Assembly: GCA_016647705.1 (NCBI GenBank)
Contig: CM028335.1
Location: forward strand, 35,230,212 to 35,294,211
DNA length: 64,000 nt
Direction: 5' to 3'
Source: Eucommia ulmoides
Lineage: Eukaryota > Streptophyta > Magnoliopsida > Garryales > Eucommiaceae
The notes under the pieces were generated by a model. That model was not told the DNA's origin. It did no database searches and saw only the letters and a program-made list of their open reading frames with translations. This document shows positions 24,515 to 64,000 of the stretch, in pieces (the stretch's first letter is position 1; each line of letters opens with the position of its first letter). The translations under genes and the position numbers were made by a program.

Positions 24515-24715
24515 ATGTGGAAACTCGTTATCTCCAAAGGAGATGATGATCCATGGCTTAGAACCGTCAATAATCATATTGGTAGACAATTTTGGGAGTT
24601 TGATCCGAATCTTGGGACGTTGGAGGAGCGAAAACAAGTTGAAAGACTTCAAGAAGAATTTCACCGGAATCGTTTTCAAGTGAAACATAGTTCCGATCTC
24701 CTTATGAGAAATCAG
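24515..24715 (+). CDS. OSC exon 1 (codons 1-67)
   Basis: Starts at ATG in gaaaATGtgg and ends CAG|gtcaaa, phase 0. It encodes MWKL followed by the [17 protein letters not shown] block and ends [11 protein letters not shown], matching the usual first exon of sterol-type OSCs. An overlapping out-of-frame ORF from 24492 lacks similarity and is ignored. Confidence 0.93.
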
Positions 24716-39700: not shown

Positions 39701-42700
39701 ACATCGAAAGATGAAATATCTAGTACAATTAGCTCGTCAAGAATATGTATTCTCCATACCTCCAGCCTATTTTAATAAGATTTTAAGATTGCCAATCCTA
39801 TATATAACAAGAAGTAGAAGAGAAAAACACTAAATAACCAGAATCACAAAATTGAACAACTGAAATCATATTCAATTCATGATTGAAAATTATGATAAAC
39901 GCTAGAAAAGGGATAATCGAGATGTGACAAAATCAATGCCTCCTAACAGCATTAGAGTACCATCAATAGCCATAAAAGATACAAATGTTGTAGAATTTAA
40001 GGAAGTAAAAGTTGACAAGTCAGGTGTGAAAGGACTGGATATTAGAAACAACAAATTTACACAATATATATATATATATATAAACAATCACAATTAATAT
40101 CAAATTCCTTAAAGTCGGATCTAACCGTATTAACATAAACAATAAATTAAACAATACTAAATCATATTTAATACATTGATTACCTCTTCCATACTTCAGC
40201 CTCAAAGCTAGTAGTTCTTGAGGCGTGATTTGAGCAGGCCCTCCTGAGAACGTCTAAATACAAAGAGTATAGGCACATGAGAATTTATTTTCTCAGAAGT
40301 GACACATAGAGGATCTCCGATTGAAAAGTATTATTAGGCTTTCTAAGATTGAATCTAATTCCAAGACTGTAGAATAAGTCTTGTTTGAATTAGGTGATAG
40401 TAATATTCAAATCAGAACGTAAAATCAGAAAAACGAAATCTCACAAACAAAATAAGATTATTCTCTAAGAAACAAGGGGTGGCCTAAAATTAATATGGCA
40501 GAAACTCTAATGGGGGACGCCAATCATTAGTCTTCCACCTTATAAAGGATGTCGAGAGTTAAAAACCCTGGACCCCCTATTTTTGTATTCGCACTTTGAT
40601 CTCCTGAACTTCTTAAGTTCAACATTACTACTCTTTCCCTTTTCAAGGACTGTTCTATCATCAATTCTCTATTGTGTGTGACCCAGTAAGTTCATTCCAA
40701 AAGTCGAATGGTGAAAATAATTAATTGATGAATTAATTAATCAATAAAAATTAGAATAATTTCAATTTTCTCTTCTAAAAGAAAGATTTTTTTCCCTTAA
40801 AATATTTTCTCCGATTGTAAGTCACGTCTACCCACATATCACAAGCATAACCAATTAGTAGGAATTTAACCAAGAAAACCTCCTTAGGTATGATAAATAT
40901 ATTATACATTCTCTCGATCTGTGTACTCGAAAGCACTAACATGTATGGTTAAGTCAAAAACCCTATTCCAATCATATATATTTTGTTTGTATTATAATTC
41001 CTTGTGATACCAATTGGAATATTATTCTAATCATCACATTTCTCTAGTTAAAGGATTTAGTGAATTATACTAAACCGAATCACATAGAACACATCTTTTT
41101 TGCTAAGAATGATAGATTCTACCTCGCATACTTGTATATTCATATGTATATCCTACTATACCTAATGAATACTTTTGAAGGCTTGTAGTTAGACAACAAC
41201 ACTTAGTATTATCAAAGAATAGTAATCCATATATGTAATATACAACAGCCCCAGTTAAAAGATCATAAATACAATTATACCTTAGACACCCTATTTGTGT
41301 TGAGCAAAACTACCATGTAGGATATCAAGGATGATCACTTTCGGGCCTATACTACATTAGCAAGTCCTCTTGTGGTTGTTCAAGTATCTCATATCGATGG
41401 TTTGAGACTCACCATTATCAAAGAGAAAACAACGAAAAAACTAGCCTAGATTATTGAAGACCACTTTCAAAAATTCAATACTGAGTAGTAACAATTTAGA
41501 ATAACAAGATACCAAATGTATTTAGTCTCCTCCTTTCAATAATAATAAATAGCCAGAGATTTAACTTAGTATCCATAGTCTACAACAATATTGATATTGT
41601 TGGTCCAAAGATCTGCCTAAGAGATGGGGTGAATTATGTAGTGATAAAAATTTAAACAATAAATTCAAAATCCAAAATATCAATTTTCCTAATTGATTAT
41701 TATCTTGTTAAGCAACATAATATATTTATCTAACTGCATACCCAAACAAACAAAAAAGTAACAATGCAACACACAAAGATTTATCCTGATTCGGCAAGTT
41801 ACTCTTACCAGAGTCTACTGCCCCGAGTTGCACAAGGATTTCGCAATCCACTAACCCTTTGTTTCTTTTCTTGGGTGGGAACCAAACTCTTACAATCCAT
41901 ATTCTTTTTGCAAGCTCAAAATCAACATTTACCAATTCTTTTCATAGGCTCAGAATCAACATATCAGTCTATAACACTATCACACTTATCTTTTTTGTAT
42001 GCTTAGGAAGAACCTTCTTACAATCTAATTTTAGAATAGGAAGAGTCAAAATCTAATATTTTAAATGGCTAAAGATCAACCTAATATGTTTCGCAGGTTA
42101 AAGATCAAATCTTAATCTTTTTCTCAATCTAAAGATTAAACTCCAATCTTTTTCACATACTAAAGATTAAAACCTAACTACCCTGATTAGACATCATCTC
42201 AAACGTGTCTAATTCACTTAAACTCGCATATACAAAAGATTTAACAGTTTCTTCCCACAAGGAACTTCTACCAACTCAATACAATTATGCTCAATTAATG
42301 TCCCGAAATACTACGTGATAGATTCAATGTGAGGTACAAATCTAATTTAAACAATTTAACGCACAAATAGAAGATAATCACATTTTTTAAATAAAAATCG
42401 TTTTTAAAAGATTTTAACGCCATTAGATTTAAAATGATTTTTCTCAAAACAATTAATCTAGGTAATTTAAGCTAATAATATAAGAAATCAAAATAATTAG
42501 TTTGGAAAGATCTCACCAGAATTCGTTGAGAACGATTACGATAATTCAGTAACGAATACAAACCGGTGACCAAAACTTTTAGCGCTTCGATCAAGAACTC
42601 TTTCGATAATATTAGTTATAAATTTCAGCATAGAAAAATATATTTTATCATAGCCAAAATTTGAATGTTCTTGATTAATGAATTTGAAAAACGCAAGTCT

Positions 42701-42945
42701 TTATTTATAAACCTTTAACTAAACCTCCAACGGCTAATTTTCAAATTTCAAGAATTAAAAAGACCCTTTGATACCCCATATATCATATAGTTTCAAAATA
42801 AGTATGTTTCATTTAAAAATACTTTTATAAAAGCTCAATTTGGTCCCCAAAACTTTTTCAATTCAAAATCCTTAAGGATAGGAAGTAGTTTCATCAATTT
42901 AATTAAGAGAATAATTAAATATGTGGACCAAATAAATAGAAAATA

Positions 42946-42992
<47 letters not shown>

Positions 42993-45900
42993 CAAAATAT
43001 TTAATTCCCTTTAAAAACTCATTTAAAATCATAAAAAATAAGAAGCTTTAACCCAAAAACCAAGTCAGTTAAATCTTTGAACTTATTTAAAATCGTAAAA
43101 AACAAGAAGATTTAACCCAAAAACCAAGTCAGTTAAATCTTTGACTATTGATCATCGATTGACCGGACACATCGCCGGTTGACCGATCTTGTGCAACGGT
43201 CAAAATTCTCACCATTGTACTGGAATGGTAGGTTGACCGACTTAACCGTAGGTTTTTCCACTTTTCCTTATTTTGGCTGCTGGATTCGTTAGTTGACCAA
43301 TCCTACCCGTCGGTTGACCAAATTGACCAGTAGGTTACCAATTTCACTTCTTTAAGCTATTGTTTTGGTTAGTTGACCGACACCTTTCGTTGGTTTACCC
43401 GAAAACACACAATTTTAATTGTTAAAACTATTTTTTCAATTACACCCTTAACAAAAAATATTTTTAAGCTTTTACACCTTACAAAAACCATTTATAATCT
43501 TTGAATTTATCACTTCTGATTAAAACACACATAAGATTTATTGATTTTAAAGTGTAGAGTGTGATCCTAATTCGGGTTACATTAAAAGCATAGTGGTAAT
43601 GAGTTGTTTTCACCTAAATTGTGTTTGATACTCTGAAAATTTTCATTACCTTCATCTTGCACCCATTATGAATTTCTTCAATGATTAATCTTTTCAACCA
43701 AATCTTTTTCTAATTTCAACATATGGAACTTAAATTTGAAACAACTCAATAAAAATATTAGTTCCACAAAACATTAACGTCTAATTATCCATCAAAACAT
43801 TAGGTTCAACATATACAATTAAATAATAATATCAAAATACCGTTTATTAATTACTTGAGGTTATTACTAGAAACAAGTCTGCTTAAGATTGCCTATAAGC
43901 TTATCCTAAACAAGGGGACATATGAAGAGAGGCTCCATAGTCTAGGAACCATATGGAAGAAGACGTAGTTGAATAAATAGGGGTAACAAACGTAATGAAG
44001 AAGTGGTGGACATAGCATTTGGTTGTGTGGAAAGGGTTATATTTTCAAGGGGGACGCAATTGCTACTACTATTGCTACTGCACCATTATGTTCAACTGAA
44101 CTTAGCGCATTAAGCATTCTAATGACCCTTGCTTATATAAACTACATTCATCAAAAGTAGCCTCGAATAAGGCTTGTTTGATATCTTGAAGTGTATCTTC
44201 TGAACAAATAGTTCACTAACCACCGAGTCAATAGACGGAAATGGGCTATGATGCAAAATTGTCCCATAAAGTCTCCCAAAATCATCATGTAATGTCATTA
44301 AAAATTGGATTAAACGTTGTTCTTCTCTATGAGAAATATACAAAGTACATGTTGGTGATAATTACTAAAATTTCAAAATAAATACGTAAATAATCAAGAA
44401 ATGAAACAAATAATAATTAAAAAAAATATTACCATGAACATCAACTATGCATGGATGGGTTGTAAAATCAGATTCAGGAAGTTTTGTGAAACATTATAAA
44501 GTGTATACCAAACCAAAATCGTTATGTGAATATTCACATAAATATACAGAACGTGAAGATTCATTAATCAAAACCATAAATTGTCTATGTGCGTGACGAT
44601 TCACGTAACAGAAACATAAGCAAAATCAGAGACAGGACATAAACATTTACGTAACGAAAACAATGAATTAAACTTTAAATAAAGACTTACCTGAATATTC
44701 AAACAATAAACAAAATCGAAGTAGATCAAGGCTAGAGTTTGACTCTATGCCCTTTAAGCAGATTCGTGCCCCACATTAGTGCTAATGGTTGAATGGACGT
44801 CTACCTTGTAGGGTATGACGATCTTCAAGTTTCTGGTAAAAACACTTCAAAATAAAAACTTCGACAAACAGAACTTGTTCTTGAACTCTCACAATATTCT
44901 ATATCTTTTTATGATTTGATGGTGATATGAATTGGTAATGTTTTAAATCAGACAAATTGAAATGAATGTGAAGTATCTTATTTATAGAAGACAAAAAAAA
45001 CCCATTGAATGGATGTAATTTTGGAAAGGTATTTGTTCCCGTGAACATTCACACGAACAGTCATCAATGAACCTTCATGTCTGTTCATTGGTTTTGTTTC
45101 AAAAGTAACTGTTAAGCAATTAATTAACTGCCACTTATTTAAAAACTATCCTGACAGGTTAAAATCCAACTCGACCTGGATTCGACCCAAACCAAACCTA
45201 GATCTGACCCAAACCCGATCCATATTTGGATTGGATTGACCCGACCCCAACTTGACCCGGACCCCAACCCAACCTGTTTCGAGTTAAATGTTTGTTGCCT
45301 AGCGACTTGCCTTTATTCCAACTTATAATTTGATATAAGCTTAAGTTATTTCTCCATAACCAATGTAAGATTTCTTATAATTTATAGCTTGATGAGATGC
45401 TCAAGTTCTTCCTTCACAATCGATGTGGGGTTACTTATCCATCCTAATCTTCAACCAATCTCAAATAGGTTACTTTGAGAATTAAAATCTCATTCAAACC
45501 TCAATCATTTTTGGTATATAAATATACTACGTCAATCACTAAACGGTGAAGAATGCAACAAAATACTAACCTGGTAAATTTAATTATTGGGTCTCAATCT
45601 AATTAATAAACTAAAGTAGCCAAAAATTCTAACATAACACACTCATAATTCTATGAATTCCATGTGGGCTCCATGATCCCAAAGATATGTCACAAAGGAG
45701 CAGAACTCGTGAGTAGTCATATCATTTTATTTCAGTTCTTGAACATCATATTCTAATTTGTAGTATTCTGCAATGTTGAACTGCATTTACAACCTTCATA
45801 GACCTTTTTGGAATATTCATATTTCGCCAATTGCATACCTATCAAATGATCAACAAAATCGTTGATCCAAATGATAATTTTTGAATTATTGGCCTCGGTA

Positions 45901-48900
45901 TTTAAGGAAACAGCATAAGTTTTAGGCCTTTGATCATTGGGTTTAACCAATGTACCACTAACATAAAACCATATCTTTTTGCCTTTAAGAATTTTTTCAT
46001 CACGTAACTCCGATACAATTTTTTTTCTCTTTCAATCTCACACTAATAGACTAAATCGAATTAGACATTTCAAAATTCATTACGAATACCAACAACAAAA
46101 AATCACAAGTCGAACAGGAAGGAGAAAGAAAATACTAGGAGACGATGTAATGTTTGCTGTAGAAAAGGCAATTCAAAATTTTACGGAAGCTAAATCAAAA
46201 TTGTACAGATGTTGTTATAGCCAAGCCAAATCAAATTAGAGTTGGATTCGTGGTCATTGTGGATGTGATCAAAGTTTCTTCTACGAAAATTGATTGTTGA
46301 TACCATGTTAAGATCGTTGAATAAGAAATAATTTAAGAAGAAAAGAGAAAGGCGGCTAGAGTTTATTGTTGTGAATAATGAATGGAGAATTAAAAAACAG
46401 CATAAGTTAAATAAGTTTACAATAGAAAGACTTAGCAATGAAGAAATATCTATTTTATCCTCAAATGAATATACAAGGCTAAAAAATTTTGGGCAGTATT
46501 TGGCCCGAAGCTACCAATTGTACTTCTTAGACAAACAATAAATTTTATGATGCAATGTGTTGTAATTGGTAGTTCGAGTTGAAAATACAACTGCTTCTCA
46601 ATTTCAAATGGTCAAACCGGGATTTTGTTGAATATGAAGACAAACACAAGACTTGTTAGCACTGTTATCCAGTTGTGATAGTTTTCTTGGTAATGAATGG
46701 CTGATCACAAACGAAGTGCAGAATTTTGATGGAGGGTGGGGATTACACATTGAAGGGCATAGCACCATGTTAAGTACAGCTCTCAATTATGTATCTCTGA
46801 GATTGCTTGGTGGAAAAATGAATGGTAGTGAAGGCACAATAAAGAAAGCAAGGAAATGGATTCTTGATCATGGTGGACTCACATACATTCCGTCCTGGGG
46901 AAAATTATGGCTCTCGGTAAGACTAGACTTGAACATTTTAAATAATAAACTCTCAACAAAACGTTTTCTTCATGATAAATACATTTGACTTAACTATTAT
47001 TGGATATTCAAAATTAATAATGAATAAAAACATTTATAATCTATTGTATAAATCATGACTTACTTCACATTTTAGATATTTTTGACCATTAGATCGTTGG
47101 AGATGTTTTTAACTATTTATTTATATTTTTTTGATAAACAAAATAACAAAGTCTCAACAAAACGTAGTTTTATGATTAATATGTTAGAAGATATTCAATA
47201 TTAATGTATTAAATTAAAATTTAAGTATTTAACAATTAAGTTTTTATCCCATGAAGAATTTTACACCATTAGATCAAATTTTAGATAGAACAATTGAGAT
47301 CAAACAATATTTTAACATTACAGTTAGTCGTTGGCCCATATATCTTCAATATCTTATTTAAGTTTCTGTCTCTCACACACACACACAACAAACTGTAAAC
47401 CGTGGTTTCCAAAGAGTTTCAGCTGCAAATTTTCTTGGAATGCACATATGACTGGTTTGTAATGGCATCCATGTGAAGTTTGTTGTGCTCTCGCATATGC
47501 TCATTTAATATTAAGATATGGTTTCAAAACAAAGGAATCGGTCATGTACTACGCTTCTAGTTGTTAAGCAACATTCCTAAAAGATAAGGAAATTTATCCA
47601 AAGTCCATTTATGTTCCTGACCTGGTTTTAAATATTCATTGCGGATCAACAAGTTATCAACCAAATATTGCAAGTCCACTTCCAGCAACCTGCTAACTTG
47701 TAACACCAAAGACTAAAGATGGCACCGATGTGGTATTAGCCAAAGAATCTCTGGTGTGTGAATAAATCCACACGTTCTGAGAAAAAAGTTAAATGTAGTA
47801 GTCGACTGTATCGTATGTATTACCCTTGCAATTACATATGTTTCCCTTTGTTGAACTTCGGGTTCGGGTTTTATGCTTTATGCTCGAAGTTGGCTAGTAA
47901 TCTTTTTCCACTTCTCCCATGTTGCTGTTTTATCGAGCTGAGTGGCTATAGTGGATCAGTCACATGAAAGTAGCCAATTTTTGTCTGGACTAGATCCTTT
48001 GCGGGTCTGGTCCTATTCAAATGGACACCCTGATTTGGTTGGGTATTTCATTCAAAGATGGCCCATTGGACTGATCCAATTTTCCGATTGTTAATCTTAT
48101 TCTTGGGCCTAGTTAGACGAGCCCCTTGACAACTTGACTATTTCCAAGAAGAAAGACGAGAAGTCATCAGACCTGAATTTTGAAGGAAGCAACAGTAAGT
48201 TTTTCTGATCCTTCTACTTGCATTCTCAATTTGTTTCATTTTTCCTCCTCCAATTCTTTCTTTCTAGGTAGCTTTAGTATTTTCTAAACTCACTAGCTGC
48301 AATGGATGTCCCTCCTGTAAGTAGTCTCAATAGTAGTATCGCTGAAATTAGTTCTTCGCTTGATTTAGTCTTTGAAAATCCTAGCCAAATTGAGAATCCC
48401 CCTCCCACTAATTTTTCGTATTTGTTAAGTTGGTTTCAAAGGTGGGGCCCGCGCCATTCTTTTCAAGCAAGTTGTGAAACTTGTGTAGAACTTTCAAGTT
48501 CCCACTTGTTGGTGGACAATCAAAGTTGGTTTTCTTCTATTTGCTCCAGCTGTATTCCGGCGCCACTTTTTTGGTTGATAACTTTGACAAAGAATGACAA
48601 AGTTCATTTTTGATTGTTCATCCATTCCAACACCATTCTCAACTCTATAAATATGAGGGAACCTTGTTCATTTTTCTTGTGTAGAGATCAAGAGAGTTGT
48701 GAGAGACAAAAGGAAAAGTACCCCTTTCTTAGAGAGATCCCATTTAAGAGTGTTATATCCAATTTTATATTTTATCCATGAGGATTATTGGGTCAAATTT
48801 TGGTTTTGAGTGTTGAGCTATAACCACTTGTATTCATTTTTTCTTATAGTGAGTATTCTTGATCCGTCTTCGCCCGTAGAGTAGGCGCCCTGCCGAATCA

Positions 48901-51900
48901 TGTTAAATTCTTGTCTCAATTTTGTGTGTTTTCCATACTAATCTTTATTTCTCGTAATCATATTTTAACTTCCTTTTAGATCCTGGGCAATACGAGTCAC
49001 TATTTACGTGAAAAATAACTAATAGGGGAATAGTGATTTCGTGCCTATTTCATAACAAACTGGTATCGGAGCTATTTTAGCTTTGTTACTTTTGGAGTTT
49101 CCAAAAAGTGACGGCCAAATATGAGATCAAAAAATTTGATGGCAAAATCAGCTTTAGTTTATGGCGTGTTAAAATGCATACTTTGCTAGTCCAACAAGGC
49201 TTGCAGAAGGCATTATGGAGCAGAGAAAAATTGTCCACTGATCAAGGCACAGATGCAGGTACCAGAGTAGAAACTTTTGTTGGATCTGAAACTGTTACCA
49301 AGGTTCCAGTTGCTACCATGTCTAATGTCGAATTTGCAGAAATTGACGAGAAAGGTCGTAGTGCAATTATTCTCAACTTGGCAGACAAAGTGTTGTGTGA
49401 ATTCGTGGAGGAAGACACCACGGAAAAATTGGGGTTAAAGCTTGAAAGACTCTATATGACAAAGTCTCTCACCAATAGGTTGTATTTACTCTATATGACA
49501 AAGTCTCTCACTAATAGGTTGTATTTGATAAAAAAAAAATCTCTATACACCTCAGATGAAGGAAGATACGCCTATTAAAGAACATATTGATGAGTTTAAT
49601 AAAGTAATCATGGATCTGCAAAATATTGATATTAAAATTAAAGATGAAGATCGAGCCTTTATTTATTATGTTCCTTACCCCCTTCATACGAGAATTTTGT
49701 TACAACTTTGCTCTATGGAAGAGACACTATTAGTATAGAAGATGTTAAATCATTGCTAAATTCTCAAGAGTTGAGAAAAAGAGTGTCTAGCAATAATTCA
49801 AATGAAATTGCTGAAGGACTTGTTGTGAGTGGGAGAAGTCAAAATAGGGGTTCTGGAAATAAAGATCAATCTAGGTCAAAGTCTAGATCAAACAAAAATA
49901 TTGAGTGTTACTACTGTCACAAAAAGGGGCACACTAGATGGAATTGTCAAAAACTTAAGAAAAATGATAAGAATGACAAATCAACTAGTAATTCTTCTGA
50001 TATTATTGGAGTCGTAGAAAATAAATTGGATGACGAAAATGTTCTTTCTGTCACTGATGGTGATTTGAGCTCAGAATATGAGTGGATTATTGATTCTGGT
50101 GCTTCCTACCATAGATGTCCTATTAAAGATTAGTTTTCAACATATGAATCAATTAATGGTGGTACAGTCTTAATGGGAAATAATATGGCATGTAAAACAG
50201 TTAGAATGGGAACCATCCAACTCAATATGTATGATGGTATTATATAAACGTTGACGAATATTCAATATGTTCCAAATGTCAAGAAGAATTTAGTTTCTCT
50301 AGGTACTCTCGATTCTAACGGTTGTAAGTTTTCCACTGATGGTGGAATTTTGAGAGTTTCAAAAGGTGATCTAATAGTGATGAAAGGTAGAAAGAAGAAT
50401 GGTCTTTATTTTTTGCAGGATGACACAGTTCTTAGCTCTACATCAGTATCTTAATCGGTTGACTCAGATTCAGATACTACTTGTTTGTGGCATATGCGTC
50501 TAGGGCATATGAGCGAGAGAGGTATGGAAATATTAAGCAAACGTGGTTTTGCTTTGTGGTCAGAAACTTGGTAAACTTGGATTTTGTGAAAATTGTATTT
50601 TTGGTAAACAAAAATGAGTCCAGTTTTCTACTGCAGTACATAGGACCAAAGGTACAGTAGATTACATCCATTCAGATCTTTGGGGTCCTTCACAAGTTCC
50701 CTCTCTTGGTGGTTCTCGGTATTTATTGACTTTTATTGATGATTTTTCAAGTAAATTCTGGATTTATACCTTCAAAAATAAAAGTGATGTGTTCACAAAA
50801 TTTAAATAGTGGAAGACAATGATTGAAAATTAGACCCGTAAGAAAGTAAAGCGTTTACGGACTGATAATGGTTTAGAATTCTGTTCAGATAAATTTACTG
50901 AGTTCTATAGGAACAAAGGCATCGTTAGACACCGTACGGTTAAGAGTGCTCCACAACAAAATGGAGTTGTAGAATGCATGAATAGAACTCTTTTGGAAAG
51001 AGCACGTTGTATGCCCTTTAATGTAGGTCTGTCTAAGAAATTTTGGGATGAAGTAGTCAACACCGCATGCTACTTGGTAAATAGGTCTCTGTCGACTGCT
51101 ATTGAATGTAAAACACCTGAAGAGGTTTGGTTTGGTTTTCCTGCTGATTATTCTTCTTTAGGAATTTTTGGATGTCCAGCTTATGCTCATGTCAACGAAG
51201 GAAAATTAGAGCCAAGAGCTAAGAAATGTATTTTCCTTGGGTATGAACAAGGAGTGAAAGGATACAGGTTGTGGTGTCCTAATCCTAAATCTCCTAAATT
51301 TATTACCAGTAGAGATGTAACTTTTGATGTATCTAGTATGCTTCATTCTAGAAAAGATAATGTTGACACAGGTGATTCTCAAAGTGACAAACAACAGGTG
51401 CAGTTAAAGTTTGAAACTTCAAAATCGATGCAAGAAGTTTATGTGGAACATCCCAATGATGAGGAGGTACAACAAGATGTTGTACAAGAACCGCAATAGT
51501 GCAGTATTGCTACAAGAAGACAACACCGATAGATTAAGCCACCTCAAAGGTATGCTTATGCAGATGTAATTACTTATACTTTGTCTATGACAGAAATTAT
51601 TGAAGACGAGAATGAACCTTCCACTTATCTTGATGCCATTATAAGCAAAGAATCTGCAAAATGGACTGTTGCTGTGACAGAAAAGACTAAGTCTCTTCAT
51701 AGGAATCAGACATGGGAGTTAGTCAAACCGCCTAAAGGCTAGAAGATTGTGGGTTACAAATGGGTTTTCAAAAGGAAAAGAAGGAATTCTAGGGGTCGAA
51801 GATGCAAGGTACAAAGCACGCTTGGTAGCTAAAGGCTACAGTCAGAGAGAAGGGATAGACTTCAACGAAGTTTTCTCACCAATGGTAAAACATAGTTCGC

Positions 51901-54900
51901 TTCGCGTGTTACTTGCTATGGTTGTTGTACTTGACTTAGAGCTTGAGCAGCTTGATGTCAAAAACAACTTTTCTTCACAGTGAACTTGAAGAACGTATCT
52001 ATATGCATCAGCCCAAGGGATTCATTGTTCAGGGAAAAGAAGGTCATGTTTTCTTATATGGTTTAAAGCAATCTCGAAGACAGTAGTATAAATGGTTTGA
52101 TTCTTTTATGATTAATCATGCGACTGTAGAAGTAATTATGATAGTTGTGTGTATTTCAGAAAGCTCCCCGATGATTCTTTTTGTATATTTGTTATTATAT
52201 GTTAATGACATGCTCATTGTTGCTAAAAGTATGTCAGAAATCAGGAAACTGAAATCTCAACTCAATGTCGAGTTTAAGATGAAAGATTTGGGTGTAGCTC
52301 GGAGGATTTTGGGAATGGAAATTTGCAGGGATCGTCAAACTAGCAAACTTTGTCTCAAAAAGTTTATATTAAGAAGGTAATTGAACGATTTGACATGCAA
52401 AATTCTAATTCCGTTTGTACACCACTTGCTTATCACTTTTGCTTATCTTCAAAGATGTCACCACAGACAAACGAAGAAAAGAAACACATGTCAGGTGTTC
52501 CATATGCTAGTGCCGTCAGCAGTCTTATATATGCTATGGTATGTACTCGCTTTGATATTTCACATGTTGTTAGTATTGTTAGTAGATATATGGAAAATCC
52601 AAGAAAAGGACATTGGTAGGCAGTGAAATGGATTCTTCGTTATCTAAAAGGTACTGTAGATGTTGGTTTGGTCTATGAGAAGAGTGGAGACACTTGTGGA
52701 AGTGTCGTTGGTTACGTGGATTCTGATTATGCAGGGGATTTGGACAGAAGAGGATCCTTGACAGGTTTTATATTTACTCTCTCAGGATGTCTAATTAGTT
52801 GGAAAGTAACTTTACAACTTACGGTTGCTCTTTCCACTACAGAGGCGGAATATATGGCAGTGACTGAGGCAGTGAAAGAAGCTATCTGGTTAAGAGGTTT
52901 GGTTTCAGATTTCGGCTTACAACAGAATTTAACTGTTGTTTATTTTGACAACCAGAGTGTGATACATTTGACTAAAAATCAGATGTATCATGAAAGAACT
53001 AAACATATTGATATCAAGTATCACTTCATTTGGAATATTATATCTGGAGGATTTATCAGCGTTCAGAAGATTGGTATAGCAGATAATCCAGCAGATCTAA
53101 TGATAAAGCCTGTTCCCACTCATATGTTCCAGCATTGCTTGAGCTTGGTTCGTGTTCAGAAGACGTAGCGAATCCTTTGGGGTTTCTTGGAGTAGATTGG
53201 ATCAAGATTTATGTGGTTTTCCATTTAATGAAAATTGTCTTGCAACTCTTTGTCCCCATATTTACTGGAGGGGAAAATTTGTTAAGTTGGTTTCAAAGGT
53301 GGGGCCCATGCCATTGTTTTCAAACAACTTGTGAAACTTGTGTAGAACTTTCAAGTTCCCACTTGTTGGTGGACAAATCAAAGTTGGTTTTCCTCTATTT
53401 GTTCCAGCTGGATTCCGGCGCCACTTTTTTGGTTGATAACTTTGACGAAGAATGACAAAGTTCATTCTTGATTGTTCATCCATTCCACCGCCATTCTCAA
53501 CTCTATAAATATGAGGGAACCTTGTTCATTTTTCTTGTGTAGAGATCAAGAGAGTTGTAAGAGACAAAAGGGAAAAATACCCATTTTTTTAGAAAGATCC
53601 CCTTTGAGAGTGTTATATCCAATTTTATATTTTATCCGTGAGGATTATTTGGTGTATTTGGGATTTGGGTTTTGAGTGTTGAGCTGTTACCACTTGTATT
53701 CATATTTTCTTATAGTGAATACTCTTGATCCGTCTTCGCCTGTGGAGTAGGCACCCTGCCGAACCACATTAAATTGTTGTCTCTATTTTGTGTGTTTGCC
53801 ATACTAATCTTTATTTCTCGTTATCGTATTTTAACTTCATTTTAGATCCTGGGCAGTATGAGTTACTATTTATGTAAAAAATAACTTACGGGAATAGTAA
53901 TTTCGTACCTATTTCATAACAGTATTGTTGGGAGGGAGACCATTGCCCATCCAAGAACAAAAACCCAGCCAAATTGGTAACAAAAACCAGCAAAATTAAG
54001 AAAAAAACTCAGCCAAATTGAGAAATCACAAGCTCTATTGCTCTCATCTCTCTTCGCTCCAGCCATCGGCATCTCTATTACCTCACCACTGTCATCATCA
54101 CTGCCTGTGATTTCTCGCCAACGCCAAACAAGAACGAAACGACGCAAGCCTGTGATTTCTCACAATCTAACAACCCTTTTTTTCCATCGCCAAACAAACA
54201 ACAACGTTCAACCAAACCCATCGCCACTGAATTTCGAAGAACAATGAACCCTAAAACGAAATAAAAAATAAATAAATCAGAAAACGATGAACACGAAATC
54301 AAAAATAGGAATCAGAAATAAAATCAAAATGAAAAACGAAATCAGATCGAAGAAGAAGAACGAAGAAAGATGACGGTGAAATACCCCACGAAATTGCGAC
54401 GATGGTGAAGCTGCGATGGCGACGATCGACGAATCAGACGGTGAAGACGAAAACGAATGAAAAAGACGGCGACGCTGTGACGATTTTCGAAGGAAGAAGT
54501 GACAAAGATGAAGGACGTTGCGATGATTTTCGAATGAAGAAGCGACGCAAACGAAGAAGAGGATGAACGGATTTGTTAAATGATGCCTGTTTCAAAAGGA
54601 TTTCCAAATCCTTCATGTGAGGCTTCAAGGGATTTTACAAATCTATTTCCTCAGCATCCAAACAAAGCATTTGGTAAAAAAGGATTTTGAAATCACTCCC
54701 CCAAATGAAATCCCTCCTAGAAATTCTTTATCCAAACACAACCTAACTCTATCACCATAATTCTCTGAGAATCTAAGTGCCTCTTCGCCCCCTAGGGAAG
54801 GTGAAATTTGTTTTTACCTGTGGATGCTTGAGTACAACCTCTGTCTTCGCTTCACTCGTTTTCTTTGTAATATCTTTAGGTTGTTCGAGATCAGCCTACC

Positions 54901-57900
54901 CAATTAGTCCCGAATAGCTTTCAACATATCATGGGCGCAGTAGCCATTTCTCGTATCAACAATATTGCCCTAACTCCTGTGTTTGCTCCATGAAATTCAA
55001 AAAGGATTAGCCATTGGGCTTTTAGGTCGGTCGTTGTTTTCTTTTTTATCGTGGTGGGTCTACGAAATCTCTAGGTTCGCTTACCAACTTACAGTGGAAT
55101 AAAACATATACCAATTATCCCCTTGTATCATTATCAGTATCAATATCAATATCATTATCAATATTTATTTTTCATGCATATTCCAACTAGTTAAGTTGTT
55201 CATTACTGACCTAGCATTAAGTTAACCTGAATGTGAACTATTATTTTTTTATTTACAAATTTAAAGTTATAGAGCTACCAAGATTGGAGTGAAAAGTTAT
55301 AGTTGGTGATGGTATGATTAGAAGATTGGAGTGAAAAGTTATAGTTGGTAATATTATGATTAGCATGGGTATAATTTTATTGAAGATTTTATTGTACTTA
55401 CGGATTTCAGAGTTGTACAAATTTAATATATTGGGGATTAGTACTCAAGGAGTTTTCGATGGCTTTTCCTTGCGCATCGGATTCTCGGGAGACCTAGACC
55501 CGGACAAACTTTTCATCAATTTTGTTACATTTAACGGTACTAACTTATGCATGTTAATCTAATGTGAAGGGTGTAAATTGTAAATTTCCAAATTACAAGA
55601 TGGTAAAGTAAAATAGACTTAAGTAGAAGGTAGAGTGAAACTAAGCTATTTTTTCTTTTTCCCTGTAGGTACTTGGCATATACGAGTGGAGTGGCAACAA
55701 CCCTCTGCCCCCAGAGATATGGCTTCTTCCTTACTTTATTCCAATACACCCAGGTATTTTTATTTTTTTTATTCTGATATATTTCATTCAACTACACCCC
55801 GTTTGGTAATAATTGTAACTAGAATTCTATCCGGGAAGTGTTTCTTGCATGGAATTGGACTCTTGGAGTTTGTTTTAGAAATGATTGCATGTTCAATTTC
55901 AAATTTTTATATTCGTTCATTTCGAATTCCAATTCCATGGAATTAATTTTGTATTCCCAAACACTACCTCAAATCAATTCACTTGAAATCATTTGATTTT
56001 GAAATTGAAAAAAGAAAAACTTAAAGACCCCTAACGCAAACAAGATCCTTAACCTTGAAATACAATCAAATGAATTTCCTTTTGGATAATGTATATATGC
56101 ATGGATTCCTATAGGAAAATACTACAATCTCAAACCAAGAATTTGACCAAAAAAATTACCATTTGACCCCAAAATCCCTTACCCTTTTTAGAAAAAGTGC
56201 TTATTTTTATGTGAAAATTCAAATTGTTACAAACACAAAATTGATCTCATTTCTTGTTCGTTTTAAATAATACATTTTCCTACGTTTTATGGGCGGTTAA
56301 GAATCTAATTTTTTAATAAATTTTTATTTAAAAATTGTATCAAAATTAATTTCTTTTAAAGACTCTAAAACATTATGTTTTAATACATACAGCAGTGTCA
56401 AAATTGACCAAAAATTAGATTCTTTATCCCTTAAAATATTAACCACAAATGCAGATTATTAAAAATGGATAAAAGATGAAATCAGTTTCATATTTTAAAA
56501 TTTTTATTAGGTCATGTAAAATAAACATTTTTTTTCAAAAGAAGGAAAGTAATTTGGGTATTAAATCTAATGTTTTCATTATTTTTCCCTAAATTATAAT
56601 ACTCTCTGAGTGGAATCCACGATTATATAGATCATCCACAATGAAATTTAGTAGAGTAGATAATTTGTGTTCCAATGTTAAGGATTTGATACGCGTCATC
56701 TTCTCAATTGTTTTGTCTATTTTGTTAGATTTAACAGAAAAACTAACGTTTGCACTTCTATCCAAAATCTAAGGAGATAAACTTCCTATTTTCAAAATAT
56801 AAGCGGGTATGGTATATTAAAATTAGGTTTAAGTAAAAGATAATAAACTACAATAACCTCAAAAATAAAAAAGAGAGAAAAAATAATTTTTCAAATCCAA
56901 CCATCAATAAATTTGTCGATTCTCATAAGTGAATGAAATAAGAAATTGAGAAATCTGAAGATTCATACCAAAAGCCATAATTATTAAAAATACGATAGTA
57001 AGTTGGATTATTTTCTAGTTTTATGAATACCAAATGATGGGGAAAACAAAGAACAAAATTACAACTGATAAGAATACTGAAATGGAATTTGATAATGGTA
57101 ATTACATGAAAATCCAACTACTGAAATGCAGGTCGTATGTGGTGTCACTGTCGGATGGTGTATTTGCCCATGTCATACTTGTATGGGAAGAGATTTGTAG
57201 GACCAATAAATGCAACAATTTTGTCACTAAGAACAGAGCTATATACACAACCCTATCATCGAGTTAATTGGGACTTGGCAAGAAATCAATGTGCGAAGGT
57301 AAAATCATTGTTCTTTTGGTGTGCAAAGTGCATTTTATCCAACCATTAATGATAGTTTTGTGTCATTGATTAGAATATATGTAAATGGAACGCACGTTCC
57401 TTTGCCACCAGTTATTATTATGCTACAATATTCATATGGATCCTGACACGTTTGGTATGTTCTCTATTTGTGTTAATGTGTTTCTTACAATATGTACATA
57501 CGGCTCAAGCTGATCAGGCCCATTACCTTACTTGCAACCCAAGTCTCGTAACCCTAGTCTCACGCCTACATATAGGCCCCAATTGTATGAAGAAGTTTAT
57601 GTGTCTCTTCTACTTTTCTATTCCATATATAAAAATCACTCTTTTCTATTATTTTCGCATGGTATCAAGAACTGAATAATCTAAGATTTTGTTTTTAATC
57701 CATTTTTTCTCATTATTTTAATATATATATTGAGGATCCGGAAACCGTAAATTCAGTTCACCCACCTCCAATGACTTGTCATTTTCAACAATCATATTTC
57801 AACCAACATAGCAAAACCACAATATTTTTTGCCTTCTTCCTTTTGTCATGTTAGTGCCACATCAAATTCTTCCATCTATGCCACCTACCACATCTTCCTT

Positions 57901-60900: not shown

Positions 60901-63064
60901 TATAAAGGTCTCATTGTATAAAGTTATATGTGTGTCTCTTACACTTTTGTATGTATGAATATCTCAATGTTATTGCAGGAAGATCTGTATTATCCACATC
61001 CGCTGGTACAAGACATCCTATGGGAATGTCTCGACAAGGTCGTGGACCCACTCCTTATGAGATGGCCCTTCTCAAAGCTGAGGAAAAAGGCATTACTTAC
61101 TGTAATGAAACAGATTCATTATGAGGACGAAAACACCAGATATATATGCATTGGGCCCGTGAATAAGGTAGTGAAATTTCATATATTACTCTTAAACCTT
61201 TTTTTTAATAGATGTGTGTTTTCTTTAGCCCGTATTGTCGACTCACATGTTAAATTGGATATCATTAATTATGAAATTTTCTTGTGTAAATATAAATGAA
61301 GAAGACTGGATTTTACTAAAATTAAGTGCAGTCACACTTTTTCCTTTAAAGATTCAATTGATGGATTCCTGTCAATTTGATGCGGATTAAGGGAAAAAGT
61401 GAACCTTAATCAAACTTAAGGGTGTAAAGTGGAATATAACTTTTATTTATTACAATACTTCTTCAGGTCCATTGATGCTGTTCATGTTAATCATTATTTG
61501 ACTTGTTTCAATTTCTTCTAATAAGATTTAGTAATACTAAATAAATATATCCTCATACAAAAACAGGTGTTGAACATGGTTTGTTGTTGGGTAGAAGATC
61601 CAAACTCGATGGCAATCAAAATGCATCTTTCAAGGATTAAAGACTATTTATGGGTGGCTGAAGATGGCATGAAAATGCAGGTCTTCTCATTACCTTTCTC
61701 ACCAATTTAATACATCCTTTATCTATGTTCATAAATCATCACACTTAAATCGAAAATGTTGCTATGGAAACCATGTGATGCGAATTTTCAAAATCTATTT
61801 ACAGGGTTACAATGGGTCTCAATTGTGGGATGTTGCTTTTGCTGTTCAAGCTATACTTGCAACAAACCTTACTAACGAATATGGATCAATGGTAAAAAAA
61901 GCTCATGAATTTATTAAAAATTCACAGGTAATGATTCTTGAACTTCAAAAGTAGTCATCCATCATGATAGGCCAGATTAATGCTTTAATTTTATGATTTG
62001 ATCTCTATTCAAAGGTTACAACAGATAGCTCTGGCGATGTTTGTTCTTGGTACCGCCACATTTCCAAAGGTGGATGGCCTTTTTCAACCCCAGATAATGG
62101 TTGGCCTGTATCCGATTGCACAGCAGAAGGTTTGAAGGTACCACTACACCATAATCTTAAGAATTCTTAGATAGAAGGAATTGTTCTTTTTGTCTTATTA
62201 TTATACACATGACAATTGATCTACATCTATTATTACTAGTAACAATATCACATTTCTTAGAGAATCATGACCTCTAGCTTATATGCAGGCAGCCACATTG
62301 ATATCACAAATGCCATTTGACGTTGTTGGAGAAGTAATTACACCAAATAAATTACATGATGCTGCTGATTTGATTTTATCCCTTCAGGTACCGTGTTCAG
62401 CAAGTTATCACGTTGGTATAGGAAATTGCTTAGGTGTTTTTTAGTGTTTTCGTTCTCAAATATCTATTTCTAAACCCATAATTCTTGAAACGTAAATAAG
62501 TATCAGCAATAATCATGTTCTATCCTCAGACATTTGTTCAAAAAAATTCAGAGAAGAACAAAAACAATTTTTTTGTGTCTCGGTAGTATTGTTTATGTTC
62601 CAAATTCTTGGGAATAGAAACACTATACGGACGGTGCCTTAGCTAAATAATGTTGACAGTTTGAGAATATCTTGTAATCAAATATGCATATTGAGAAATA
62701 CCACAATTGTTTAAGATTGCTTACATATGAAATTAGACCTCACATATCTAATGAATTTTTATTTTTTTTAAATATTTAGCATTGTATATCAATGGAAAAT
62801 ATCCCAGAAACCTTACTTTTATGAATCCTACAGAATGACAGTGGAGGTTTTGCATCATATGAGCTTACAAGATCTTATGCATGGTTGGAGGTGGAACATT
62901 TTTTTAGGCTCTCTCTTTTACTACCAAAAAAAAGAAAAAATACATAAAAGTAAATGTTAAAAGTATTTGATAATATTTGAATGATTGTTTTCATGCATCA
63001 TCTAATTTATATTGCAGGTTATCAATCCAGCTGAAACATTTGGGGATATAGTCATTGATTATCA
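24515..63064 (+). CDS. Oxidosqualene cyclase, lanosterol synthase-like (3' partial; 13 exons in window)
   Basis: Cyclises 2,3-oxidosqualene to a tetracyclic sterol precursor; family members act at the ER membrane. Joined exons: 24515-24715, 24850-25026, 25117-25206, 46722-46916, 55669-55753, 57132-57298, 60979-61167, 61567-61680, 61805-61927, 62015-62137, 62289-62387, 62834-62890, 63018-63064, giving 555 codons plus two bases, all in frame with GT-AG introns. The N-terminus MWKL and the [13 protein letters not shown] block are family hallmarks and fix the start. QW-type repeats occur in exons 2 and 4. MWCHCR (His255, = AtCAS1 His257) indicates a protosteryl (chair-boat-chair) cyclase rather than a beta-amyrin or lupeol synthase. 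Tyr408 (= Tyr410) is kept. The catalytic Asp481 lies in DCTAE; Asn475 and Val479 correspond to AtCAS1 His477 and Ile481, the combination known from plant lanosterol synthases. About 200 C-terminal residues are not in the window. Alternatives are a divergent cycloartenol synthase or a recently truncated copy; OSC identity is near certain, the product is inference. Confidence 0.93.
24850..25026 (+). CDS. OSC exon 2 (codons 68-126)
   Basis: Acceptor tgatgtacag, donor CTT|gtaatt. It encodes FAKENPG, a family-variable stretch, then [20 protein letters not shown], the first strong QW-type repeat, ending LLPGL as in cycloartenol synthase. Intron 1 (24716-24849) is 134 bp. Confidence 0.93.
25117..25206 (+). 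CDS. OSC exon 3 (codons 127-156)
   Basis: Acceptor ctcatcag, donor CAG|gtaatt. Encodes [20 protein letters not shown] followed by [10 protein letters not shown], the conserved exon ending in NHQ. Intron 2 is only 90 bp; the following intron 3 is about 21.5 kb. Confidence 0.93.
25207..25699. other. Left end of OSC intron 3
   Basis: AT-rich with a poly-A run at 25393-25411. No gene or recognised repeat. Confidence 0.5.
25700..25811 (-). repeat. Remnant of the 3' LTR of the intron-3 Copia
   Basis: The end of LTR A (ttaattgtccatcaaaacat..ttcaaca) occurs here next to a purine tract on the minus strand (aatggagata). The rest of the LTR is absent, so the element lost most of its 3' LTR. Confidence 0.72.
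26445..27295 (-). pseudogene. Copia reverse transcriptase and RNase H relic
   Basis: 27295-26969 minus encodes [20 protein letters not shown] and [15 protein letters not shown], the Copia RT core, with YLND where YVDD is expected. 26741-26445 encodes [20 protein letters not shown] and the RNase H segment with [17 protein letters not shown] frame break lies between them. Confidence 0.88.
27646..29350 (-). mobile_element. Solo LTR, family B (second copy), inside the intron-3 Copia
   Basis: 1705 bp, plus-strand ends TGTACGCC...CACCTATCA, flanked by a perfect 5-bp duplication ATTAA (27641-27645, 29351-29355). Minus-strand sense: starts TGATAGGTGTGATCC, carries several CGCCTAGGCG-type palindromes (29130-28860), then a TATA box CCTATAAATATCC at 28813-28801. 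It splits the integrase and RT parts of the host Copia, so it is younger. No internal retroelement region remains. Confidence 0.93.
29356..30306 (-). pseudogene. Copia integrase relic
   Basis: 30306-29917 minus encodes the core start ([32 protein letters not shown]); an overlapping frame carries [16 protein letters not shown], so a frameshift splits the core. 29730-29356 carries the C-terminal part ([20 protein letters not shown]). Confidence 0.87.
31600..32400 (-). pseudogene. Copia gag (UBN2-type) relic
   Basis: 32097-31813 minus encodes [20 protein letters not shown] followed by [12 protein letters not shown], the plant Copia gag signature. The N-terminal part ([20 protein letters not shown]) lies upstream at about 32400-32330 in a different open segment. 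Frame breaks separate the pieces. Confidence 0.85.
32509..35071 (-). repeat. Family-A LTR (5' LTR of the antisense Copia)
   Basis: Minus-strand sense TG...CA, about 2.1 kb once the inserted 417-bp foldback element (33533-33949) is subtracted. Shares ordered blocks with 781-2810, 5261-7204 and 41598-43811: a plus-strand 'tatccaagaggggg' end, a series of 'cttttcacaggctcagaa' units, a TTGACC-rich block and a 'catcaaaa..attag' end. Confidence 0.87.
33533..33949. mobile_element. Foldback element inserted in LTR A, perfect TSD
   Basis: 417 bp. TGTCACACC...GGTGTGACA ends with inverted arms of about 95 bp (33533-33628 and 33855-33949), flanked by a perfect 5-bp duplication ATAAA (33528-33532, 33950-33954). 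The arms carry GGCCGGGCGTGACATCGAC, nearly identical to the reverse complement of the end of solo LTR C (near 21320-21340). No coding content; open frames here are mirror translations of the arms. Confidence 0.9.
35410..36506. mobile_element. Long-TIR (MULE-like) element in OSC intron 3
   Basis: Terminal inverted repeats of roughly 190 bp (about 35410-35605 and 36318-36506) share 'aagtgggttt..aaaatt' and 'ggtactcctagct' blocks in opposite orientation. They are flanked by a direct repeat ATGAAATGTAGA (35398-35409, 36507-36518), compatible with the 9-11 bp duplications of Mutator-like elements. The interior holds an unrecognised frame at 35973-36392 (139 codons, + strand). No transposase is seen. 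Confidence 0.75.
36600..40250 (-). mobile_element. Second antisense Copia relic in OSC intron 3
   Basis: Minus-strand fragments: RT core with [10 protein letters not shown] at 37852-37822, and an integrase segment at 39382-39100 with [10 protein letters not shown] (normally QQNGVAERKH) followed by [17 protein letters not shown]. Heavily mutated, with no clear LTRs. A TATA-like 'cctttataaggtgg' on the minus strand near 40550 may belong to its 5' LTR. Confidence 0.75.
40251..41597. other. Intron 3 stretch, possible LTR of the adjacent Copia relic
   Basis: No coding frame. Position to the right of an antisense Copia relic and a minus-strand TATA-like motif near 40550 suggest a decayed 5' LTR, but I found no partner copy or duplication. 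Confidence 0.3.
41598..43811 (-). mobile_element. Solo LTR, family A, in OSC intron 3
   Basis: About 2.2 kb, TGTTGGTCCAAAG...GGTTCAACA. Minus-strand sense with a TATA box GGTTTATAAATAAAG near 42700. Contains a (TA)n run at 42950-42991, a 63-bp tandem duplication at about 43017-43143, and a TTGACC cluster at 43141-43378. No clear 5-bp target duplication (GATAT versus TATAC) and no adjoining internal region. Confidence 0.85.
43141..43378 (-). promoter_or_regulatory. Cluster of W-box-like TTGACC motifs in LTR A
   Basis: TTGACC at 43159, 43179, 43233, 43293, 43314, 43323 and 43373, plus TTGACT at 43141 and GGTCAA at 43198. TTGAC[CT] is the core of the WRKY-factor W-box. On the LTR sense strand this block is upstream of the TATA box. 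Function is inferred from motif density only. Confidence 0.5.
44000..46500 (-). mobile_element. Third antisense Copia relic (gag and primer-site region)
   Basis: 44343-44119 minus encodes [20 protein letters not shown], a Copia gag block. 45950-45753 minus encodes a gag N-terminal-like segment ([20 protein letters not shown]). At 46295-46310 the minus strand reads ATGGTATCAACAATC, a Met-tRNA-type primer site, so its 5' LTR would lie to the right, ending shortly before OSC exon 4. Confidence 0.7.
46722..46916 (+). CDS. OSC exon 4 (codons 157-221)
   Basis: Acceptor cgaagtgcag, donor TCG|gtaaga. Encodes [16 protein letters not shown], the segment that normally follows NHQ, through to SWGKLWLS. 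Continuity with exon 3 across the 21.5 kb intron is supported by phase and by exact family continuation. The usual EGPSTM is EGHSTM here. Confidence 0.93.
46917..48301. other. Left part of OSC intron 4
   Basis: No recognised gene. AT-rich to about 47700, then mixed sequence. Contains a short (AC)n run near 47375. Confidence 0.5.
48423..49057 (+). repeat. 5' LTR of the intron-4 Copia element
   Basis: 635 bp, TG...CA. TATA box CTCTATAAATATGAGG near 48644. Followed after three bases by the primer-binding site. Confidence 0.93.
49108..53168 (+). pseudogene. Copia gag-pol polyprotein, broken in several places
   Basis: The gag starts near 49108 with [20 protein letters not shown], typical of Tnt1-like elements. 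A zinc knuckle ([14 protein letters not shown]) is near 49907 and the protease motif IIDSGAS near 50088. Pre-integrase [11 protein letters not shown] lies near 50490, integrase core about 50650-51140 (RTDNG, QQNGVVE), and reverse transcriptase about 51600-52380 including a YVND variant of the usual YVDD. RNase H is 52623-53168 (STTEAEYMA). Frame breaks near 49550 and 49735 and stops at 50134 and around 50245, 50455 and 50800 show it cannot make one polyprotein. A 39-bp tandem duplication lies in gag. Confidence 0.93.
53280..53921 (+). repeat. 3' LTR of the intron-4 Copia element
   Basis: 642 bp, the same ends as the 5' LTR, TATA box CTCTATAAATATGAGG near 53501 and pointing toward OSC exons 5-13. 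Followed by target duplication GTATT. Confidence 0.93.
53927..54770. other. Intron 4 stretch right of the Copia element
   Basis: A-rich and purine-rich, with GA/CGA-rich blocks at 54300-54560 and 'tccaaacacaacc' near 54735, which resembles ends of plant MITEs. No boundaries resolved. Confidence 0.35.
55669..55753 (+). CDS. OSC exon 5 (codons 222-249 plus one base)
   Basis: Acceptor ccctgtag, donor CAG|gtattt with one base of a split Gly codon. Encodes [18 protein letters not shown] and then [10 protein letters not shown], a near-invariant OSC block. Intron 4 (46917-55668) is 8.75 kb. Confidence 0.93.
55795..55970. repeat. Possible MITE in OSC intron 5
   Basis: 'ccccgtttggtaataatt' at the left and 'tgtattcccaaacactacc' at the right are roughly inverted, with 'ggaattcc'-type internal symmetry. 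No clear duplication. It lies about 45 bp after exon 5. Confidence 0.35.
55971..57131. other. Remainder of OSC intron 5
   Basis: AT-rich, no gene or recognised repeat. Confidence 0.5.
57132..57298 (+). CDS. OSC exon 6 (codons 250-305)
   Basis: Acceptor gaaatgcag, donor AAG|gtaaaa. Completes Gly250 and encodes [20 protein letters not shown], then the [12 protein letters not shown] region, ending ARNQCAK. His255 within CHCR is the residue that separates sterol-type from triterpene-type plant OSCs (Tyr in the latter). Confidence 0.94.
57440..60960 (+). mobile_element. Decayed sense-strand Copia element in OSC intron 6
   Basis: A 5' LTR-like segment ends near 57660 and is followed by TGGTATCAAGAACTG, a Met-tRNA-type primer site. 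RT fragments lie at about 60060-60520 ([30 protein letters not shown], then [14 protein letters not shown]). A 3' LTR-like segment at about 60820-60960 shares 'atatta.cttactt' and 'gtgtctctt.acttt' with the 5' one. Heavily mutated. Confidence 0.75.
60979..61167 (+). CDS. OSC exon 7 (codons 306-368)
   Basis: Acceptor ttattgcag, donor AAG|gtagtg. Encodes [20 protein letters not shown], continuing to [17 protein letters not shown], both diagnostic of OSCs. The acceptor lies within tens of bases of the end of a decayed Copia LTR in intron 6. Confidence 0.93.
61168..61566. other. OSC intron 7
   Basis: 399 bp, AT-rich, no feature seen. Confidence 0.6.
61567..61680 (+). CDS. OSC exon 8 (codons 369-406)
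   Basis: Acceptor aaaaacag, donor CAG|gtcttc. Encodes [14 protein letters not shown] and ends [11 protein letters not shown], as in sterol cyclases. Confidence 0.93.
61805..61927 (+). CDS. OSC exon 9 (codons 407-447)
   Basis: Acceptor atttacag, donor CAG|gtaatg. Encodes [20 protein letters not shown]. Tyr408 corresponds to AtCAS1 Tyr410, an active-site residue whose mutation changes product in CAS1; it is unchanged here. Confidence 0.93.
62015..62137 (+). CDS. OSC exon 10 (codons 448-488), catalytic DCTAE
   Basis: Acceptor attcaaag, donor AAG|gtacca. Encodes [13 protein letters not shown] and then [18 protein letters not shown]. Asp481 is the proton donor of the DCTAE motif. Asn475 and Val479 sit six and two residues before it, at the positions of AtCAS1 His477 and Ile481. 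Confidence 0.94.
62289..62387 (+). CDS. OSC exon 11 (codons 489-521)
   Basis: Acceptor tatatgcag, donor CAG|gtaccg. Encodes [17 protein letters not shown] and ends ADLILSLQ, matching the AALLLSK..ISLQ region of the family. Confidence 0.91.
62388..62833. other. OSC intron 11
   Basis: 446 bp, no feature seen. It ends with a standard pyrimidine-poor acceptor atcctacag. Confidence 0.6.
62834..62890 (+). CDS. OSC exon 12 (codons 522-540)
   Basis: Acceptor atcctacag, donor GAG|gtggaa. Encodes [19 protein letters not shown], the 19-codon exon with the conserved YELTRSY core. Confidence 0.92.
63018..63064 (+). CDS. OSC exon 13 (codons 541-555 plus two bases), last exon in window
   Basis: Acceptor atattgcag, donor TATCA|gtaaga. 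Encodes [15 protein letters not shown] plus the first two bases (CA) of a split codon where most relatives have Pro. No YVECTSA-type continuation is found between here and 64000. Confidence 0.9.
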
Positions 63065-63569
63065 GTAAGACTATATGGTCACTCATAGTAGTCATCTTGA
63101 AATTATCATTGAAATATTTCTCCATCATTACTTCTTTCAGTACCATAGATCATCATGATTTTCTAGTCGCTACAGATTTCTTGCGAACCTTGCGTGGAAC
63201 AACTGAACTAACTCTCAAATGGAAATGCTCCTTATATTTTTGTCAAGTAAACGGTTAATAGATTCTTCCTAAGTTTATTATTTATTAATTCTTTTATTCA
63301 AGCTTCCAACAAACCATTCTAACCGTGAAAATTCATTTTCACAATTAAAAGTATTAGGAGTATCGAATAATAATAAAAATTTCAATATATATATAGTGGA
63401 ATATTCAAACTATTGTATTTGGGAAGCAAGGTAGCAGATATCGAACAATATGGCATCGTTATAACAATCCACGAATACTAATAGAAGAATTCTACGAAGT
63501 ATTTCAACTCAAAAAACTTACCTAAAATCTATACTTCATCATAATATTAGATGTATATGTAACTTCTAT
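63065..63569. other. Start of OSC intron 13
   Basis: Begins gtaaga. No exon encoding the expected YVECTSA block was found. A 67-codon frame at 63055-63258 has no OSC similarity. Confidence 0.5.
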
Positions 63570-64000
63570 TGTTGGTCCAAGTCTAGCCAGGGGTGAATTG
63601 GGTAGCGCAAAAAACATAGATTTTTTTGGCTTCTTTTTAACTCATTCAAAATTTCTAACTTAAAACAATTTATACCAACTTTAATGAGTGTGATAAGATT
63701 GCAGTGAAATAAAAAATCAAATAGTTAATCACAAGCACACAAACAAAAAGATAGGCATAGAGATATTGACACAGTTATTTATAGTAGTTCGGCCAAGGTA
63801 CCTCATTCCCTACGTCTGCTCAACCAAGGTCCTTCAAGGATTTTAAATCCACTATTCTCTGATCTTCTTCCCCAGTGAAGATCAAACTGATTATCTATCA
63901 ATTCAAGTTTTCTCTTGCAATTGGAGTTTCTATCAAGCACCTATAGTCCAATACACCCTATATTGACTTACTACGTGGTTGTAGAAGTGTCTACAATAAA
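63570..64000 (-). mobile_element. Family-A-related LTR entering at window edge
   Basis: Starts TGTTGGTCCAAGTCTAGCCA followed by 'ggggtgaattgggtag', the terminus shared by family-A LTRs, and continues with 'cctcattccctacgtctgctc'. It diverges from the other copies, so a related subfamily. It continues past 64000. Confidence 0.7.

Follow-up and report, generated by a model that had tools for sequence, protein, structure and literature searches.

Does the oxidosqualene cyclase (OSC) gene carried by a 64,000-nucleotide stretch of the Eucommia ulmoides genome (GenBank assembly GCA_016647705.1, contig CM028335.1, positions 35,230,212 to 35,294,211 of the forward strand; hereafter the window) belong with the lanosterol synthases (LAS) or with the cycloartenol synthases (CAS)? 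A preliminary description of this DNA had favored a LAS-type OSC based on two residues close to the catalytic aspartate. This assignment is supported here, with reservations, by the residue pair, by published criteria for telling CAS from LAS, and by the remaining sites of the protein when the switch columns are left out. The locus very probably represents a eudicot LAS gene (plant OSC group F), of which the window contains three quarters from the 5' side; it is most likely an ordinary LAS-type gene with introns swollen by transposons.

Positions 24515-63064 of the plus strand of the window are the front three quarters of a plant OSC gene. A model of 13 exons yields 555 stop-free codons with consistent phases; all 12 introns have GT...AG borders and a GT donor closes exon 13. 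Since homology and splice signals guided the manual placement of the exon ends, the GT-AG borders are partly a result of how the model was constructed; the common phase and the open frame across the 13 exons are not. The features of the model are as follows.

24515..24715, plus strand, exon 1, start of the protein
24850..25026, plus strand, exon 2, carries a QW motif
25117..25206, plus strand, exon 3
25207..46721, plus strand, intron 3, 21515 bases
46722..46916, plus strand, exon 4
55669..55753, plus strand, exon 5
57132..57298, plus strand, exon 6, contains His255
60979..61167, plus strand, exon 7
61567..61680, plus strand, exon 8
61805..61927, plus strand, exon 9, Tyr408 in GYNGSQ
62015..62137, plus strand, exon 10, Asn475, Val479 and the catalytic Asp481, with an AG acceptor before it and a GT donor after it
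62289..62387, plus strand, exon 11
62834..62890, plus strand, exon 12, contains Tyr530, the counterpart of Tyr532 in Arabidopsis LAS1
63018..63064, plus strand, exon 13, the last one in the window, stopping mid-codon at GATTATCA followed by gtaaga

Introns 4, 5, and 6 measure 8752, 1378, and 3680 bases, respectively. Exon 13 stops in the middle of a codon and the gene should therefore extend past position 64000, so that a complete 3' end would lie outside the window, as does the C-terminal quarter of the protein with the position of Cys562. An exon 14 was not found in the 936 bases 3' of exon 13, and homology matches to OSCs end by position 63110. Membership of the translation in the oxidosqualene/squalene cyclase family is in no doubt, as Pfam (SQHop_cyclase_N, PF13249, E-value 4.2e-38; SQHop_cyclase_C, PF13243, 3.6e-16), NCBIfam (TIGR01787, 6.9e-148), and PDB (8j5z, 9.5e-217; human lanosterol synthase, 3.1e-131) agree, with the Pfam and NCBIfam matches above their cut-offs.

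Which kind of cyclase this is can be approached through its active-site positions. The 13-exon model places His255 in CHCR (from residue 254), Tyr408 in YNGSQ (from residue 408), and Asn475 and Val479 six and two residues, respectively, ahead of Asp481. When aligned to Arabidopsis CAS1 (AtCAS1, At2g07050), these five residues fall in the columns of His257, Tyr410, His477, Ile481, and Asp483. The placement of Asn and Val in exon 10 at the AtCAS1 His477 and Ile481 positions, as the preliminary description had it, is thus borne out to the number, and its statement that His255 in CHCR and Tyr408 are kept also holds. H477N and I481V are reportedly the two mutations of a 2005 paper on turning CAS into an accurate lanosterol synthase. 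Phe470 and Tyr530 are present as well, and the protosteryl-type residues His257, Tyr410, and Tyr532 are all kept in the window as His255, Tyr408, and Tyr530.

According to the literature, His477 and Ile481 are required in all CAS1 and Val481 in all LAS1 (PMC4208727), the same rule is given for site 481 with His257 and Tyr532 typical of both CAS and LAS (PMC6423090), and CAS invariably have Tyr, His, and Ile at the three diagnostic sites, for which the typical LAS residues are T/Y, C/Q/H, and V, respectively (PMC5101207). The window lacks the His477 and Ile481 of CAS, having Asn475 and Val479 in their place, and it has the Val481 with Asn477 expected of LAS; the Asn part of this expectation comes from a provisional reference sequence of Arabidopsis LAS1 (AtLAS1, At3g45130, group F) and from the preliminary description. 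With that AtLAS1 sequence, the window agrees at H257, Y410, F472, N477, V481, D483, and Y532; the two differ in a motif that reads DNGWPV in the window and DNPWPV in AtLAS1.

By analogy with what is known of the family, Asp481 of the DCTAE motif would protonate 2,3-oxidosqualene held in a chair-boat-chair conformation, after which the protosteryl cation would form and rearrange. With Val479 replacing Ile and Asn475 replacing His, the pocket around His255 and Tyr408 may change shape, such that the final proton would be lost on the C8/C9 side, giving lanosterol, and not from C19, giving cycloartenol. Both cyclase activity and a lanosterol product are predictions from the protein sequence. Ile481Val by itself leads to a mixture of cycloartenol, lanosterol, and parkeol (PMC8617677).

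The placement of the window protein among plant OSCs was examined with provisional reference sequences, not taken from database records, for AtCAS1, AtLAS1, PNX, and the cucurbitadienol synthase CPQ; 8j5z is the only other plant reference, and the 8j5z and human lanosterol synthase segments were taken from the PDB search matches. Positions were checked in two of the provisional sequences: AtCAS1 has 759 residues with H257, Y410, H477, I481, and D483 in place, and AtLAS1 has 756 residues, to which H257, F472, V481, D483, Y532, and C562, as given in PMC6423090, fit. When columns 475 and 479 are excluded, the quartet site patterns that unite the window with AtLAS1 outnumber the two alternatives by 27:5:2 (with CAS1 and PNX), 20:7:2 (CAS1 and CPQ), and 19:5:6 (PNX and CPQ). 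A further 11 sites have the AtLAS1 state in the window against a state common to CAS1, PNX, and CPQ. The branch uniting the window with AtLAS1 received support of 73/87, 88/87, and 99/98 in trees of 7, 6, and 5 rows, respectively. Moreover, CPQ, CAS1, and PNX form a group without the window in all five trees built, supported by 55/29 in the 7-row tree, 89/87 and 99/98 in the other two small trees, 92/81 in a tree of 21 rows, and a Shimodaira-Hasegawa-like approximate likelihood ratio test (SH-aLRT) value of 80 in a tree of 87 rows. Approximately unbiased (AU) tests, run after the first tree had been seen, rejected the joining of the window to CAS1 and PNX (p-AU 0.029, 0.025, and 0.013). Later still, its joining to cucurbitadienol synthase, represented by the single provisional CPQ sequence, was also rejected (p-AU 0.003, 0.001, and 0.005). 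With these references, the window was not placed inside the CAS or the cucurbitadienol synthase clade, a placement that would have spoken against a LAS-type enzyme.

Several observations weigh against assignment to LAS. An AU test, made at the same late stage, did not reject the window as sister to CAS1, PNX, and CPQ together (p-AU 0.075 with 7 rows and 0.080 with 6 rows). When 14 bacterial rows were added (the 21-row tree), AtLAS1 fell outside a group that joins the window to the remaining plants (75/74), and the 87-row tree, with 80 bacterial rows, likewise puts AtLAS1 outside (SH-aLRT 90). The phylogeny called for in the preliminary description unites the window with AtLAS1 in all three small trees (5-7 rows) and does not do so in the two trees with bacterial rows; the program cautions that long branches come together near the bacterial root, and the plant comparison is therefore preferred here, subject to that reservation. 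Identity to AtCAS1 (70.0% over 554 positions) and to PNX (69.1%) is slightly higher than identity to AtLAS1 (68.4% over 551 positions), and its lower value may be due to 35 sites at which AtLAS1 alone of the plant rows has its own state. Finally, Asn is absent from the typical LAS residues at 477 (C, Q, or H) that are listed in PMC5101207.

The Asn/Val pair is not confined to plants. Among 80 bacterial OSCs, kept out of 118 relatives in one scan of genome contigs, sites 477 and 481 read H/I in 33, N/V in 27, Q/V in 17, and H/V in 3, and none of the 44 cyclases with Asn or Gln at 477 combines it with Ile481. Conservation of the Tyr410 site in this set is uninformative because the search patterns demand Y or T there. 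Of the 27 N/V loci, 26 were assigned to Methylococcales and one (L071) was named only to Gammaproteobacteria. The lanosterol-type cyclases of Methylococcales thus have the same pair as the window, at an identity of 45.4% and 43.1% for the two N/V rows compared. Since the methanotroph Asn/Val cyclases form a separate clade in the 87-row tree, the pair had separate origins in eudicots and methanotrophs. An independent-pairs test of the two sites could draw on 4 pairs, of which 3 pointed in the same direction, none in the opposite one, and 1 showed no difference (p 0.25), and the linkage of 477 with 481 is therefore a count and not phylogenetic proof. According to PMC4919349, the bacteria tested there fully obeyed a rule by which V453 (human numbering) corresponds to lanosterol and I453 to cycloartenol, and its table records sterols in four Methylococcales. 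The joint change of the two switch sites in the 80 bacterial cyclases and the recurrence of Asn/Val in methanotrophs check the plant rule independently in real sequences. Within the bacterial set, one clade (with Methylococcales loci such as L025, L074, L068, and L058) alternates between Asn and Gln at 477 with Val481 fixed. The unusual His/Val combination is found in three Crocinitomicaceae cyclases (L064, L073, and L078), with which a His/Ile row labelled Glaciecola (L076) is grouped.

The long introns of the gene contain transposon sequence. Two retrotransposon features were located.

48423..53921, plus strand, Copia-type long terminal repeat (LTR) retrotransposon inside intron 4, with LTRs starting at 48423 and 53280 and GTATT flanking both sides
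29359-29775, minus strand, retrotransposon trace in intron 3 (SH3_retrovirus, 8.2e-07, 29.3 bits against a cut-off of 27)

In a self-comparison, the two LTRs of the Copia-type element are 90.7% identical over 647 bases; their alignment of 636 positions contains 34 transitions and 19 transversions, giving a Kimura two-parameter distance of 0.089. At assumed rates of 7e-9 and 1.3e-8 substitutions per site per year, the insertion would date to 6.4 and 3.4 million years ago, respectively. The coding region of the element is broken over separate open frames; Pfam identified SH3_retrovirus (6.4e-24) and a copia-type gag that was below its cut-off (4.8e-05). Eight open frames were submitted to Pfam; SH3_retrovirus exceeded its cut-off in a single piece of the element and in the intron 3 piece, and four of the eight had no match. 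By eye, fragments in intron 6 (57300-60978) resemble old Copia reverse transcriptase, with the single piece submitted, 60127-60264, having no Pfam match, and positions 63571-64000, past exon 13, include a TGTTGGTCCAAG start and resemble another transposon in the next intron.

Could the gene be something other than an ordinary LAS? An unlikely alternative is that it belongs to the LAS clade and is decaying or already a pseudogene, its introns stretched by transposons and its 3' exons perhaps lost or its transcript unspliced. The introns of 21.5, 8.75, and 3.7 kb, the Copia-type insertion in intron 4, and the failure to find exon 14 within 936 bases would fit such a history, as would the dispensability of LAS where it was tested, in Arabidopsis (PMC6423090) and Nicotiana benthamiana (PMC4208727). 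However, the 555 codons lack a stop and keep consistent phases although the divergence of the Copia LTRs corresponds to some 3-6 million years at the assumed rates, and the catalytic and pocket residues examined are intact. Slightly less likely is a paralogue derived from CAS, whether parkeol- or cucurbitadienol-like or an early side branch of CAS, that gained Asn and Val independently, as methanotrophs did. That the pair arose in bacteria too, that identity is marginally highest to CAS1, that Val481 may also yield parkeol (PMC8617677), and that placement as sister to CAS1, PNX, and CPQ is not rejected by the AU test all lend this some weight; yet grouping with CAS1 and PNX (p-AU 0.013-0.029) and with CPQ (0.001-0.005) is rejected, and the 11 additional sites follow AtLAS1 against CAS1, PNX, and CPQ. 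In direct comparison, AtCAS1 has CHCR, Tyr410, and DCTAE in common with the window and differs in its His477/Ile481, and CPQ (group B; 65.0% identity) has His257 and Tyr410 in common and, in its provisional sequence, likewise reads His/Ile at the switch sites.

There is a slim chance that the enzyme, while belonging to the LAS clade, makes a product other than plain lanosterol, for example parkeol or another protosteryl-derived alcohol, and serves an undescribed specialized pathway; the Asn/Val pair would then be a way of leaving cycloartenol by two residue changes that evolved more than once, in eudicots and in methanotrophs. Highly improbable is a dammarenyl-type triterpene synthase of the amyrin, lupeol, or tirucalladienol kind, some of which have Val481, as do TIRS and LUP5, tirucalladienol synthases of Arabidopsis (PMC6423090). 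The same paper gives non-polar residues at 257 and 532 in dammarane-type enzymes, but the window retains His255, Tyr408, and Tyr530, in contrast to 8j5z, in which the first two of these sites are Tyr and Phe and which is 54.8% identical to the window. A LAS-type gene with transposon-swollen introns thus remains the preferred explanation.

What such a gene might do for the plant can be considered from published accounts of the family. Lanosterol itself is a sterol precursor of apparently marginal use in plants. LAS is described as group F, eudicot-specific, and enriched in predicted gene clusters, none of them characterized (PMC12858397). LAS silencing in N. benthamiana had no visible effect and the contribution of LAS to plant sterols was small where tested (PMC4208727), and Arabidopsis LAS mutants grew normally (PMC6423090). 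The preliminary description suggested a role in secondary metabolism or in a minor sterol route, which would agree with these accounts of the family. The locus would add one more LAS-type gene to a eudicot group of unsettled role. A six-frame scan of the window returned no match to motifs of cytochrome P450 haem binding (F..G.R.C.G), UDP-glycosyltransferases (W.PQ..[VI]L.H), or BAHD acyltransferases (DFGWG), which is weak evidence on a gene cluster because introns can split such motifs; the QW motif had 6 matches in the same scan, 2 of them in cyclase exons.

Scans of the window for tRNAs and Rfam families were empty, and a scan against viral contigs matched two stretches, neither of them a relative. 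Further repeats lie elsewhere in the window. Units resembling TTTCTGTTCTCAATTT form a degenerate tandem array at 8797-9300. A dispersed repeat is present in two oppositely oriented copies, at 780-2814 and 41688-43812, that are about 79-81% identical in pieces, and further partial copies occur near 5.4-6.1, 15.4-16.5, and 32.5-34.3 kb.

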